From: Natronospiraceae bacterium
GTDB lineage: Bacteria > Pseudomonadota > Gammaproteobacteria > Natronospirales > Natronospiraceae
Length of the DNA stretch: 42,706 bases
Direction of reading: 5' to 3'
NCBI GenBank assembly: GCA_007133205.1
Contig: SLND01000027.1
Coordinates: 1 to 42,706 of the forward strand
Positions 1,688 to 42,284 of this stretch are shown in pieces. The position numbers were made by a program, and so were the translations under genes. The notes below the pieces were generated by a model. It searched no databases, was not told the DNA's origin, and was given only the letters and a program-made list of their open reading frames with translations. Position 1 is the first letter of the stretch, and every line of letters begins with the position of its first letter.

Positions 1688-1747
1688 GGGAAATCCTTCG
1701 TTCTGTTGTCTTGTTTGCCGGCCAGGTCGTGCAGATTGTTGGCTTTA

Positions 1748-1861
1748 GTGCACAGAGCACAGTTCACAGTGCACAGAAGGCCGAGTCGATTGTTGCTGCC
1801 GTGGTGTCAACGAGAAACTGCAATCACGATTTCTGTGCACTGCGCACTGTGCACTGCCCAC
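1748..1861. repeat. Inverted heptamer-repeat element, copy 1 (aceE-aceF spacer)
   Basis: The left arm (1748-1775) is four tandem 7-base units of consensus GTGCACA on the + strand. The right arm (1834-1861) is four units of the same consensus on the - strand. Both arms end inward with GTGCACAGAA, and 58 bases separate them, so the transcript could form a long hairpin. The right arm begins 6 bases beyond the aceE stop codon (TGA at 1870-1868). The left arm lies 60 bases upstream of the aceF start. Related arrays occur at 6290-6439 and 40135-40313. Confidence 0.85.
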
Positions 1862-1867
1862 TTCCCG

Positions 1868-4805: not shown

Positions 4806-6293
4806 ATGCAACCTACCCTGCCGGATTTTCCGAAAATCACGATCAAACAGGATCCGCAGCTGCCCACGGAATCCGACCTGGAAGCATTCGATGCCGTGGT
4901 CTGTCTCCTTCCGGGCGAACCCGAAGCGCTGCCGGACAATCTGCCCTGGAAGGCATTTCTCGATGCCCGCATGGAACGCTTTCCCGACCGCAAACAGCCG
5001 GTCACCACCGGCCTGCCCGGTGGCGGGCATGGGGTCCTGGCGAGGATTGCCGAAGGTGTGGAATCCTTCGATGCCCTGAGCCGGGCAGGCAAGATCGTGG
5101 CCTCACTGCTTGAGACGCATCCGCGCCACATTGCCGTGCTGTCGTGCCTGAAGAGCAAACGGGATGCCGAATGCATGTCGGAAGCACTGCTTGCCGCGCT
5201 CCATGCCGCCATTTTCCGCATGCCCCGGATCGGCAAGGCACCACCGCGCCAACCAGCAGTGGAATCCCTGCATCTGCATGGCGATATCGGCGCACCGGAT
5301 ATTGCCCGGGTGGAAGCCACCGCCGAAGGCAACAACCTGGCGCGCTGGCTCACCCAATTGCCGGGCAATTACCTGACACCCGGTATCTATCGGGGCTTTG
5401 CGAACGCGCTCGCGGAACGCGAAGGCTGGAAGATGGATTTTCTCGACCGCAAACGCCTGGAGAAGCTGGGCGCGGGGGCCTTCCTGTCCGTGGTGGAAGC
5501 CAGTCCACGCGAGGATGCCGGTATCTGCCATCTTCGCTATCGCCCGCCGGGCGCCAGGGGAAAGCCCCTCGCCCTGGTGGGCAAGGGCATCTGTTTCGAT
5601 ACCGGCGGCACCAATCTCAAGAATGCCTCCGGCATGCTGGGCATGCATGGCGACATGGGGGGCTCGGCAGTGGCCCTGGGCACCCTGCTCGCCCTGACCC
5701 GACTCGGTTTCCCGGAACCGGTGGATTGCTGGCTGGCCCTGGCCGAGAACCACATCGGTGAACGCGCGGTCCGCTGCAATGACGTGGTCACGGCGGTGGA
5801 TGGCACCACCATCGAGATAATCAACACCGACGCCGAGGGCCGGATGGTCCTGGCCGATACCCTCGCCCTGGCGGGCCGGGAAGAAGCCCGGGCGATCCTG
5901 GATTTCGCGACCCTGACCGGGTCCTGTGTGGCCGCCCTGGGGCATCGCATGAGCGGCGGCCTCACCAATCGCCCGGACTGGAACCTGGCCCTGCTGGAAA
6001 CCGGACGGGACTGTGGCGAACGGGTCTGGCCGCTGCCCAACAGCGCCGACTACGACGAAGACCTGGAATCTCCGGTGGCCGACATCCGCCAATGTCGCCC
6101 CCCGGCGGAGGCCGACCACATCTACGCCGCCCGCTTTCTCAACCGCTTCGTTCCGGCCGAATGCGGCTGGGTGCACGTGGACATGTCTGCCGGAACACGG
6201 GAAGGGGGCCTCGCGCACATCCCCACCGACACCACCGGTTTCGGGGTACGCTTCGGGACGGCATGGATGCATCGCCTGCTGGAAAACCAGTGA
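4806..6293 (+). CDS. M17-family leucyl aminopeptidase
   Basis: Cytosolic metallo-aminopeptidase of family M17, 495 residues. It removes N-terminal residues using two metal ions. The C-terminal catalytic domain keeps the expected ligands and catalytic residues: K260 (VGKG), D265 (CFDTGG), K272 (TNLK), D283 (HGDMGG), and D342, E344, R346 in the family signature NTDAEGRMVLAD. Where canonical PepA has GGISLKP, this protein reads GGTNLKN, so it belongs to a divergent M17 subgroup rather than being a plain PepA, and I give no symbol. The ATG at 4806 is chosen because AAGGA lies just upstream; an in-frame ATG at 4731 has no such support. The stop codon (6291-6293) sits inside the first heptamer of a repeat element. 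Substrate range cannot be read from sequence. Confidence 0.9.
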   Translation: MQPTLPDFPKITIKQDPQLPTESDLEAFDAVVCLLPGEPEALPDNLPWKAFLDARMERFPDRKQPVTTGLPGGGHGVLARIAEGVESFDALSRAGKIVASLLETHPRHIAVLSCLKSKRDAECMSEALLAALHAAIFRMPRIGKAPPRQPAVESLHLHGDIGAPDIARVEATAEGNNLARWLTQLPGNYLTPGIYRGFANALAEREGWKMDFLDRKRLEKLGAGAFLSVVEASPREDAGICHLRYRPPGARGKPLALVGKGICFDTGGTNLKNASGMLGMHGDMGGSAVALGTLLALTRLGFPEPVDCWLALAENHIGERAVRCNDVVTAVDGTTIEIINTDAEGRMVLADTLALAGREEARAILDFATLTGSCVAALGHRMSGGLTNRPDWNLALLETGRDCGERVWPLPNSADYDEDLESPVADIRQCRPPAEADHIYAARFLNRFVPAECGWVHVDMSAGTREGGLAHIPTDTTGFGVRFGTAWMHRLLENQ

Positions 6294-6439
6294 ACAGTAA
6301 ACAGATGAAAGTGAACAGGCGGCCGTGCCAGCCGCCCGGCCGTCCGTTTCCTGATATTCACCCCCAGACCGGATGCCGGCAGTCTGCACGGCCAGTCCGA
6401 AGCGGCACGGCCTGGCTGTCTGCACGACCGGCTGTTCAC
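6290..6439. repeat. Inverted heptamer-repeat element, copy 2 (aminopeptidase-pyrC spacer)
   Basis: The left arm at 6290-6317 is four tandem 7-base units (GTGAACA, GTAAACA, GATGAAA, GTGAACA) on the + strand. A single clear unit, GTGAACA, lies on the - strand at 6439-6433. Both outer ends carry CCAGTGAACAG. The left outer end overlaps the aminopeptidase stop codon. The interior has a second inverted pair, GGCCGTGCC and GGCACGGCC. This copy is more decayed than those at 1748-1861 and 40135-40313. The rest of the 202-base spacer holds nothing else I can name. Confidence 0.7.
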
Positions 6440-6495
6440 TGGGAACCTTTCCTTAGTATCGGTACACTGTTCGCCGCATTTCCGTGGACGCTCCC

Positions 6496-39165: not shown

Positions 39166-40116
39166 TCACAGGCCGCCTTCCAGACGGTCCGCCAACAGGC
39201 TGCGAACCGTCCGGGCGGCGGGCTCGCAGTCGACCGCCACCGACAGCAGATCGTTCTCGCGCCGCAGCCAGGTAATCTGGCGTTTGGCGTACTGGCGCGT
39301 CGCCACGATCCCGCGCCGGACCGCCTCTGCGTAGTCGTATTCCCCGCCAAGATGGGCCCATAACTGCCGGTAACCCACCGCGCGCACCGAAGGCAGCCCG
39401 GGATGCAGATCCCCGCGCTCGAACAGGCGACGCACTTCGTCGAGAAAGCCCTGCTCCATCATGGCGTCAAATCTCTGCTCGATACGTGCATGCAGCCAGT
39501 GCCGCTGTCGGGGCAGCAGTCCGATCCGGATCGCATGCCAGGGCGGTGGTGTCTGCGAGGCCTCGCGCTGCAGCTCGCTGATCGGCCGCCCCGTCTGGGC
39601 GTGCACCTCCAGTGCACGCTGGATGCGCTGGGGATCATTCGGATGAATCCGTGCGGCCGCGTCCGGGTCCACCTCGGCGAGACGTGCATGGAGTGCCGGC
39701 CAGCCATGCAGTGCCGCCTCCTCTTCCAGGCGACGGCGAAGCCCCGGATTCGCCTCGGGCATCGGCGAGAGCCCTTCGAGCAGGGCCCGGAAATAGAGCA
39801 TGGTGCCCCCGACCAGCAGGGGAATCCGGTCGCGGGCGTGGATGTCCTCGATCAGGGCACGGGCATCCTCGGAAAAACGGGCGGCGGAGTAGCTTTCCGC
39901 CGGGTCCAGAAAATCCAGCAGGTGATGGGGGGCACGGGCCAGGGTCTCGGCATCCGGTTTCGCGGTACCGATATCCATTCCGCGATAGACCATGGCCGAA
40001 TCCACGCTGATGATCTCGAAGGGACCACGCTCGACCAGGTCCACTGCCACCTCGGTCTTTCCGGTGGCCGTCGGGCCCATGAGGCAGATGACCGGTTGGA
40101 AGCCGAAAGCGGTCAT
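39166..40116 (-). CDS. miaA: tRNA dimethylallyltransferase MiaA
   Basis: Adds a dimethylallyl group to A37 of tRNAs that read codons starting with U. It has 316 residues, as in E. coli. It has the P-loop GPTATGKT (14-21), [55 protein letters not shown] and [12 protein letters not shown]. The ATG at 40116 gives the standard N-terminus. The frame stays open upstream to 40161, but that stretch translates the heptamer-repeat arm at 40135-40169 and is rejected. No good ribosome site is seen before the ATG, which lies only 18 bases from the repeat element. Confidence 0.96.
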
Positions 40117-40134
40117 TGGGGCATAGGTATTGGA

Positions 40135-40313
40135 GTGCACAGTGGACAGCGCACAGTGCACAGAGAGCAGTGGGCCGTGCTATCGGATCGCTTGCACTGA
40201 CAGTCCACGGCAGACTGCCATTTGCGAACGAGACGCAGGGATTGCCTTTTCGAAGCGGCACATATCAGCGGCCGGCACGGCACGCTGTGTACTGTGTACT
40301 GTGTACTGTTCAC
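40135..40313. repeat. Inverted heptamer-repeat element, copy 3 (mutL-miaA spacer)
   Basis: The left arm at 40135-40169 is five tandem 7-base units around GTGCACA on the + strand. The right arm at 40286-40313 is three identical TGTGTAC units plus TGTTCAC, so on the - strand it reads one GTGAACA then three GTACACA. The arms face each other across 116 bases. The right arm begins 6 bases after the mutL stop, with a GGGAAG-type boundary like that at the aceE stop. The left arm is 18 bases upstream of miaA. Related to 1748-1861 and 6290-6439. Confidence 0.85.
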
Positions 40314-40319
40314 TTCCCT

Positions 40320-42185
40320 TCACCGCCCACGCAGAAACATCCGGTCCAGCTCTTCCATCGACAAGCGCACCCAGGTGGGACGTCCATGATTGCACTGGCC
40401 GCTGCGATCGGTGCGTTCCATGTCCCGGAGCAGGGCATTCATCTCCTCCACGCTGAGACGCCGGTTGGCGCGCACGGAGCCGTGGCAGGCCATGGTCGAC
40501 AGGACCTCGTCCACGCTGTCGGCAAGGCGACGGGTGCGCCCGTGAACGGCCAGGTCGGACAGCAGATCACGCACCAGGGTCTCGGGGTCGGCATTGCGAA
40601 GCTGGACCGGTACCTGCCGCAGGCGCAGTTGTTCCGGACCGGCACGGTCCAGTTCCAGCCCGAGTCGGGCGAATTCCTCGTGCGCCTCCTCGGCCAGGTC
40701 CGCTTCCCGAGTCGAAACCGCAAGCTCGAGCGGTACCAGCAGGGGCTGACTCATCACCCCCTCGCTGTCGAACTCGCGCTTCATCCGTTCATAGACGATG
40801 CGCTCGTGGGCCGCATGCATGTCCACCAGCACCAGGCCTTCGGCATTCTGGGCAAGTATGTAGACCCCGTGAAGCTGGGCGAGGGCGTAACCTAGGGGTG
40901 GCATGGTTTCCGTGTCGGTCTCTTCTGCGACCACCGGGCCGCGGTCTCCCGCCCGTGACGGCCAACCCGCGGGCCCAGGGCTCATAGCAGAAGGGCCCGT
41001 AGCATAAGGGCCGGCAGGCGAAGAACCCGCAGACGAGGAAGGCCCGGGCTCGGCCACACCCAATGGCATGCCCGACTGGACGGGGGCCGTGGTATTTGTC
41101 CCGTCAGGCGGTGGTGGGCTCGTAGCTGTCGAAGCGCCTGGCGTCTCGCCCGCCCGGGTATGGGCGAGTGCCTCGTGCAGGGTGCGGAACAGAAAATCAT
41201 GGACCAGGCGCTGTTCGCGGAAACGCACTTCATGCTTCTGGGGATGGGCATTCACATCCACCAGGGCCGGGTCCATCTCCAGGTGAAGCACATAGGCCGG
41301 ATGGCGCTGTCCATAGAGCACGTCGCCATAGGCCTGGCGCACGGCATGGGCCACGAGACGATCACGCACCATGCGGCCATTGACGAAAAAATGCTGCAGA
41401 TCTGCCTGGCTTCGGGAAAAATGCGGCTCCGCCACCCAGCCCCACAGGCTCAGCCCGGCCGACTCGTGCTCGACAAAGAGGCTGTTTTCAAGAAAGTCGC
41501 CGCCACAGAGCTCGGCCACCCGGCGGTCGAGGGCCTCGCGATCCCTGCCGGCGGGCAGGGCGAAGACCGGCTTGCCGTTATGCAGGAGCTTGAGCGAGAC
41601 ATCCGAACGACTGAGGCCGATACGGCGTACCACGGTTTCGAGATGACCGAATTCGGTCCGCTCGGTGCGCAGGAACTTGCGCCGCCCCGGGGTATTGAAG
41701 AAGAGATCACGCACCTCGACCGTGGTCCCCTCGGGATGGGCCGCGGGCTGTGGATCACTCCAGGCACCGCCACCGTCCCCGCTAATTTCACAGGCGTGTC
41801 CCGCATCCCGTGTACGGGAACGAATCCGGACCCGCGCCACCGAGCCGATGCTGGCCAGGGCCTCGCCGCGAAAACCGAGGGTGGCGACCCGTTCAAGATC
41901 CGCCATCTCGCTCAGCTTGCTGGTGGCGTGACTGTGCACCGCGAGGGGCAGGTCATCGGCGGCAATCCCGGCACCGTCATCGGTGATCCGGATCAGGCGC
42001 ACCCCGCCCTGCTCGACTTCGATGCTGATCCTGCGCGCACCGGCGTCCAGACTGTTTTCGAGCAGTTCCTTGACCACCGAGGCGGGCCGTTCCACCACCT
42101 CCCCCGCGGCGATCTGGTTGACGAGTTGTGGCGGCAGGCTGCGTATCCGCCCGGGTGCAGCCGCCTGGCTGCTGACACTGTTCAT
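40320..42185 (-). CDS. mutL: DNA mismatch repair protein MutL
   Basis: Mismatch-repair ATPase that couples MutS to strand incision, 621 residues. The N-terminal GHKL ATPase shows [25 protein letters not shown] and [11 protein letters not shown] Pro/Ser/Gly-rich linker spans about 345-430. The C-terminal domain carries D455-MHA-x-x-E461-xxxx-E466, the metal-binding endonuclease motif, plus ACHGSVR (C567, H568) and CNHGRP (C598, H600). MutL proteins of E. coli and other MutH users lack this motif, so this one is predicted to nick DNA itself, as shown for Pseudomonas MutL. The start is taken at 42185; upstream in-frame codons are not supported. Its neighbours (amidase before, miaA after) follow the E. 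coli order. Confidence 0.97.
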
Positions 42186-42284
42186 GGAATGGCCCGACAA
42201 GCTTGAAGACGGGCACAGGGTACCGTGGCGGGCAAGGGAGGTTAAGGAATCTCTGTACAAATCAGCGGCTGTCCAGCGATTCCT

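Follow-up and report, generated by a model that had tools for sequence, protein, structure and literature searches.

The spacer between mutL and miaA in a 42,706-nucleotide stretch of a Natronospiraceae genome (the window) is occupied by a copy of a non-autonomous, MITE-like mobile element, which carries no gene and is bounded by two inverted arrays of tandem heptamers. The best explanation, and probably the correct one, is a heptamer-ended mobile element tied to IVP, the '23S rRNA intervening-sequence protein'. Heptamer arrays beside IVP genes are a general feature found in several bacterial phyla.

The element between mutL and miaA

The preliminary description gave this sequence as the third heptamer element of the window, at 40135-40313 and 18 bases from miaA, with five units on one side and three identical plus one variant on the other. 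The element is real, although its exact edges are 40134 and 40314; the letters of the arrays agree with the unit count, two further elements are present in the window, and 18 nt separate the miaA ATG from the element edge (Table 1). That description did not cover the inverted layout of the whole element, the conservation of its 114-nt core or the link with IVP genes. The three CTGTGTA units of the right array are identical, unlike the units on the left, and may stem from recent tandem amplification, as had been suggested. TRF reported the left array at 40134-40163 (period 7, 4.3 copies, 82% matches) and the right array at 40285-40309 (period 7, 100% matches), and the heptamer pattern with up to three mismatches gave 6 matches in the window against 0.00 expected from shuffles.

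Table 1. Features of the mutL-miaA region and further element copies, in window positions
Feature	Position	Strand	Remarks
Whole element, MITE-like	40134..40314	.	181 bp; occupies the full mutL-miaA spacer
Left array	40134..40170	+	AGTGCAC AGTGGAC AGCGCAC AGTGCAC AGAGAGC + AG; five heptamers of AGTGNAC type
Core	40171..40284	+	114 nt; common to copies in own genome (G000), G002 and G003; alignment A2
Right array	40285..40314	-	inverted; + strand letters CTGTGTA x3, CTGTTCA, CT
miaA	39166..40116	-	PF01715; start ATG at 40116
mutL	40320..42260	-	PF08676, PF01119; stop codon 40320-40322
Second window copy	6289..6446 (about)	.	core of same type as 40134 copy, 6319-6431
Third window copy	1747..1862	.	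same heptamers, different short core

The element sits where the miaA leader would be expected, as had been supposed, and the anticipated false extension of the MiaA start is found in the mechanical ORF 39166-40161, whose first codon is a GTG at 40161 within the left array. As a transcript the element has a strong predicted fold (z -3.27), a long hairpin built from the inverted arrays. No conserved RNA fold of the core was found (4 weak pairs), and the element has no Rfam match over the gathering score. No rRNA gene was found in the window (tRNA only), and an IVP gene is absent from the window copy.

In the own genome (G000; 2.07 Mb in 194 contigs) 32 pattern matches were grouped into 13 sites, with none for the reversed control. 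Four of these sites are located at contig ends (C20, C106, C156, C164), which indicates that the assembly breaks in these repeats. With a stricter pattern the heptamers were present in 4 of 95 genomes, namely the own genome and three others of the same family, and about 36 sites were counted in G002 among the matches listed for a looser pattern. Two of the window copies (40134 and 6289), other copies of the own genome and copies in G002 and G003 have a core of 113-115 nt in common (21 cores aligned), which is shared by two genera. The unit that multiplied consists of ends and core together and is not a slipped repeat alone.

Several variants of this anatomy were observed. Window 1747-1862 and L003:1496-1614 represent, by eye, a second core family (GGCCGAGTyGATTGT...) with common heptamer ends. 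A minimal copy at G000:C157:12664-12688 (L006:1501) consists of left and right heptamers fused without a core, and its TGA doubles, by eye, as the stop codon of the preceding gene. A REP-like palindromic repeat, GTGGGAGCGGCATTCCTGCCGCGA with its reverse complement, is nested in heptamer elements at L203:13869-14097, L203:14911-15139 and L036:1496-1724, and a related repeat, GTAGGAGCGAATTTATTCGCGA, occurs in several gaps of G001.

MiaA was detected in 28 of the 30 relatives. The mutL and miaA genes of the three same-family genomes G001, G002 and G003 nearly touch or have a short spacer between them, and the element is absent, so the window copy probably entered this site after the split from them. 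The empty spacer bears out the earlier suggestion of an inserted element with related copies, and an ordinary conserved hairpin or attenuator is rejected by the empty sites together with the scattered copy family. Contig C3 of G002 is largely collinear with contig C1 of G001; of 16 G002 elements checked against G001, 14 could be placed, and at none of the 14 sites does G001 hold an intact copy of the G002 type (a degenerate one is present at 144039). At five placed sites the G001 gap is filled by a different heptamer element of AAGCTGC/AAGCTTC type. Within the collinear part of G001, with gaps paired by eye, four of seven paired AAGC-type elements are located in gaps that G002 also uses (p=0.0026, 139 gaps), a possible sign of hot spots. 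On G002:C3 itself 14 of 16 elements fall into two stretches of the 372-kb contig, 135-146 kb and 168-186 kb, a clustering compatible with local spread or with hot spots.

No target site duplication was recognised by eye, the flanks being too diverged. A common purine-rich boundary had been proposed from the aceE and mutL stops; over 69 element edges purine richness is present, weakly (50/69 at -1 and 48-49/69 at -4 to -6), and there is no fixed word. Another observation concerns stems at the outer edges. Seven of 68 edges tested adjoin a stem with a score of at least 10, compared with 0.17% of gene ends and 0.2% of random positions (L203:17204, L036:1496, L201:15263, L032:1364, L202:346, L203:12038 and L212:15882). 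In each case an inverted repeat of 10-21 bp, perfect or nearly so, terminates exactly at the outer element edge, and at the apparently orthologous gene ends L203:17204 with L036:1496 and L201:15263 with L032:1364 the arms differ between genomes and stay matched. Such stems may reflect target choice or may be a product of insertion; because none is present in the window and all seven are in G002 or G003, they were kept out of the mechanism described below.

IVP genes between heptamer arrays

A search for a partner protein had been recommended, and it yielded a candidate in G002, where the ends AGTGAACAGTGAACAGTTCCCAGTGAACAG bound both gene-less copies and a 516-bp element with a single ORF. The product of this ORF is a four-helix-bundle protein of the IVP/S23 family (PF05635/TIGR02436). 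The ends of the window element match those of an element coding for IVP, which is not a known transposase. Two more G002 IVP genes are flanked by other words (GAGTTCT/GAGTGCT in one case, GAGGACT in the other), and the word GAGTGCT is found in this genome both at the IVP copy and in a gene-less inverted pair of 168 bp. The fourth G002 IVP gene (L059) and the G003 matches L055 (period 8) and L057 (a weak match) do not fit the heptamer pattern. Searches for IVP gave no match in the own genome (83.8% completeness) or in G001 (97%), and both genomes have heptamer elements. As a separate observation, at least three heptamer words exist in G002, and an inverted pair of AGGCGTA/AGGCGTT type accompanies two of its IVP elements (L054:1066-1211 and L058:1843-1933).

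Beyond this family, PF05635 was detected in 56 of 274 genomes by a class-wide search, and 80 loci were collected from named genomes by means of alignment A1; they represent Proteobacteria, Verrucomicrobia, Bacteroidota, Planctomycetes, Firmicutes and others (several are Pseudoalteromonas loci, which belong to the same genus and are not independent). In this set, with periods from 4 to 12 treated alike, 47 of the 52 arrays found were of period 7. Such arrays occurred in the flanks of 35 of the 80 loci, in 12 of them on both sides, and 45 loci had none that reached the threshold applied. Segments flanking IVP contained an array in 47 of 158 cases against 14 of 303 for distal segments of the same loci (Fisher p=2e-13), and MiaA loci, used as a control, gave none in 96 segments. 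In an enlarged set (116 loci fetched, 115 retained after the weak match L057 was left out) a period-7 tandem array was present beside the gene at 59 of 115 loci. Ten further IVP loci, drawn from the 59 genomes matched, included five with arrays, all eight of these arrays being of period 7, with controls at 2/20.

Where arrays are present on both sides, the inverted match is better than the direct one in 21 of 22 cases. Of 81 heptamer units, 66 contain AG when read in the left sense (z 5.4 vs shuffled units). The two-sided elements measure 427-704 bp (18 loci measured), which leaves space for IVP alone. The heptamer word varies by element and the architecture is constant; of 20 IVP loci with heptamer flanks that were scanned, none is located in an rRNA gene. 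In genomes G210 and G074 the heptamer adjacent to IVP is found again at other places, and G210 has it in close inverted pairs as well; the reversed-pattern controls in G055 and G074 came out high and were uninformative. At G093:C548:7595-10662 an IVP gene is surrounded, within 3 kb, by several arrays of the word TAGGGAN. In the open-access literature no paper was found that describes IVP genes between heptamer arrays at sites other than rRNA.

Related systems, proposed mechanism and alternatives

To our knowledge there is no agreed origin for intergenic heptamer repeats, of which the STRR of cyanobacteria are one kind. Others are, as given in parts of the respective articles, the TAACTGA repeats of Beggiatoaceae (PMC4679880) and the heptamers of Nostoc and of Xanthomonas (GGGAATC), which in two xanthomonads form 70 and 75 convergent pairs (PMC4692102). 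The elements described here are like all of these in placing tandem heptamers between genes, and like those of Xanthomonas in their many inverted pairs; in the same parts of the two articles the TAACTGA and GGGAATC repeats are treated as repeats or regulatory sites, with neither an IVP gene nor a shared-core element named.

The closest parallel for the IVP elements is the intervening sequence (IVS) of 23S rRNA in Coxiella and Leptospira. In the portion of PMC4990558 that deals with Coxiella, the IVS encodes S23p, is preceded by tandem GACAGAT heptamers whose number is strain-dependent, and is called selfish; it carries complementary ends and is cleaved by RNase III. The protein family, complementary ends and heptamers are shared with the IVP elements, on that account of the IVS, and so is the size (about 0.4 kb for the IVS, 427-704 bp here). 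Unlike an IVS within an rRNA hairpin, the window copy is intergenic; it also codes for no IVP/S23p, the product of those IVSs that contain an ORF, and its G002 relative does code for it.

The window element resembles MITEs in being short (181 bp) and non-coding, with inverted ends, many copies dispersed in intergenic DNA (13 sites) and empty sites in relatives; presence and absence at orthologous sites, by which MITEs are also judged, was found for the window copy and for the G002 copies. It differs from them in that its ends are tandem heptamer arrays of variable number instead of a fixed terminal inverted repeat, and no parent IS was found. In anatomy it is MITE-like, by location and coding it is not an rRNA IVS, and in its working it may unite both. 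It also resembles REP/REPIN-RAYT systems, whose elements are likewise small, palindromic and non-autonomous and occupy intergenic gaps. A RAYT-driven element was rejected, since the Y1_Tnp (RAYT) loci of G001, G002 and G003 have neither heptamer arrays nor AGTGAACAG ends and no Y1_Tnp gene was found in G000.

We know of no nuclease or transposase domain in IVP, and the chemistry of movement may consequently be performed by a host enzyme. Parts of the literature describe IVP as functionally uncharacterised (PMC11270868) and record it in cas loci (PMC3936711). The Xanthomonas protein XCC0516 (Xcc0516), of solved structure 2gsc, is an IVP relative (E=3.7e-36) and, according to the structural remarks in PMC4990558, a homopentamer of four-helix bundles; its closest homologue among 369 genomes has 55% identity, so none is close.

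It is proposed that IVP, ring-shaped if it follows this relative, would bind at the repeated sites that the heptamer arrays offer and bring the two ends of the element together. The IVP-bearing element, or a gene-less derivative served in trans, would then be inserted into intergenic gaps, in many cases close to other copies. The element of G002 type, of about 0.4-0.7 kb and with one gene, is the likely full-length partner of the window copy. Unit number would drift through slippage, and the heptamer word would stay specific to each element lineage. Once inserted, the element would fold through its inverted arrays into a long hairpin within the transcript of mutL and miaA, a probable substrate for RNase III by analogy with the rRNA IVS, and the insert would probably break translational coupling of mutL and miaA, genes that are nearly contiguous in relatives.

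A different role for the protein is somewhat unlikely: a selfish element might depend on host recombination or template switching for its movement and be served by IVP as a regulator, an RNA chaperone or an addiction-type factor, with the heptamers as RNA or DNA binding sites of the protein. The strong fold of the transcribed element would suit such a role, as would the likeness in sequence and structure, set out in a section of PMC10053308, between PF05635 and Avd, an accessory protein of diversity-generating retroelements. The remarks on Coxiella in PMC4990558 point the same way, S23p being seemingly not expressed although the IVS persists. Against this, the burst-like copy numbers and the empty sites require efficient movement, and none of these observations favours host recombination in particular. 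Avd differs from IVP in acting alongside a reverse transcriptase; a DGR-like partner of this kind was rejected, as RVT_1 was found in G001 only among the four genomes.

MITEs are generally served by IS transposases, and a conventional enzyme (for example a RAYT/Y1 enzyme, or that of an unrecognised IS) might likewise move the window element, the IVP genes being passengers. This is rather improbable: the failure to find IVP in G000 or G001 and the Y1_Tnp genes of G001, G002 and G003 speak for it, but the latter loci lack the ends in question, no such gene was found in G000, and inverted period-7 flanks with different words surround IVP genes in several phyla, a recurrence for which a passenger role is insufficient. 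Local tandem amplification or slippage in the spacer, with no mobile element at all, agrees with the three identical CTGTGTA units and with the frequency of heptamer arrays in intergenic DNA of some bacteria (portions of PMC4679880 and PMC4692102), but is very improbable in view of the paired inverted arrays around a core common to two genera and of the sharp empty sites.

Meaning of the association

For those annotating these genomes the insert between mutL and miaA is a warning about MiaA start calls, and the heptamer copies explain contig breaks in the source genome. More broadly, if tentatively, IVP may be the mobiliser of a whole class of tiny elements with lineage-specific words and without a known transposase, and the 23S rRNA IVSs, the STRR, TAACTGA and GGGAATC repeats and the heptamer-ended MITEs would all be its products. 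Such a system would transpose with no catalytic domain of a familiar type, and its ends would form a readable code that varies from lineage to lineage. If IVP does read heptamer arrays, the function of this protein and the origin of heptamer repeats would become one question.
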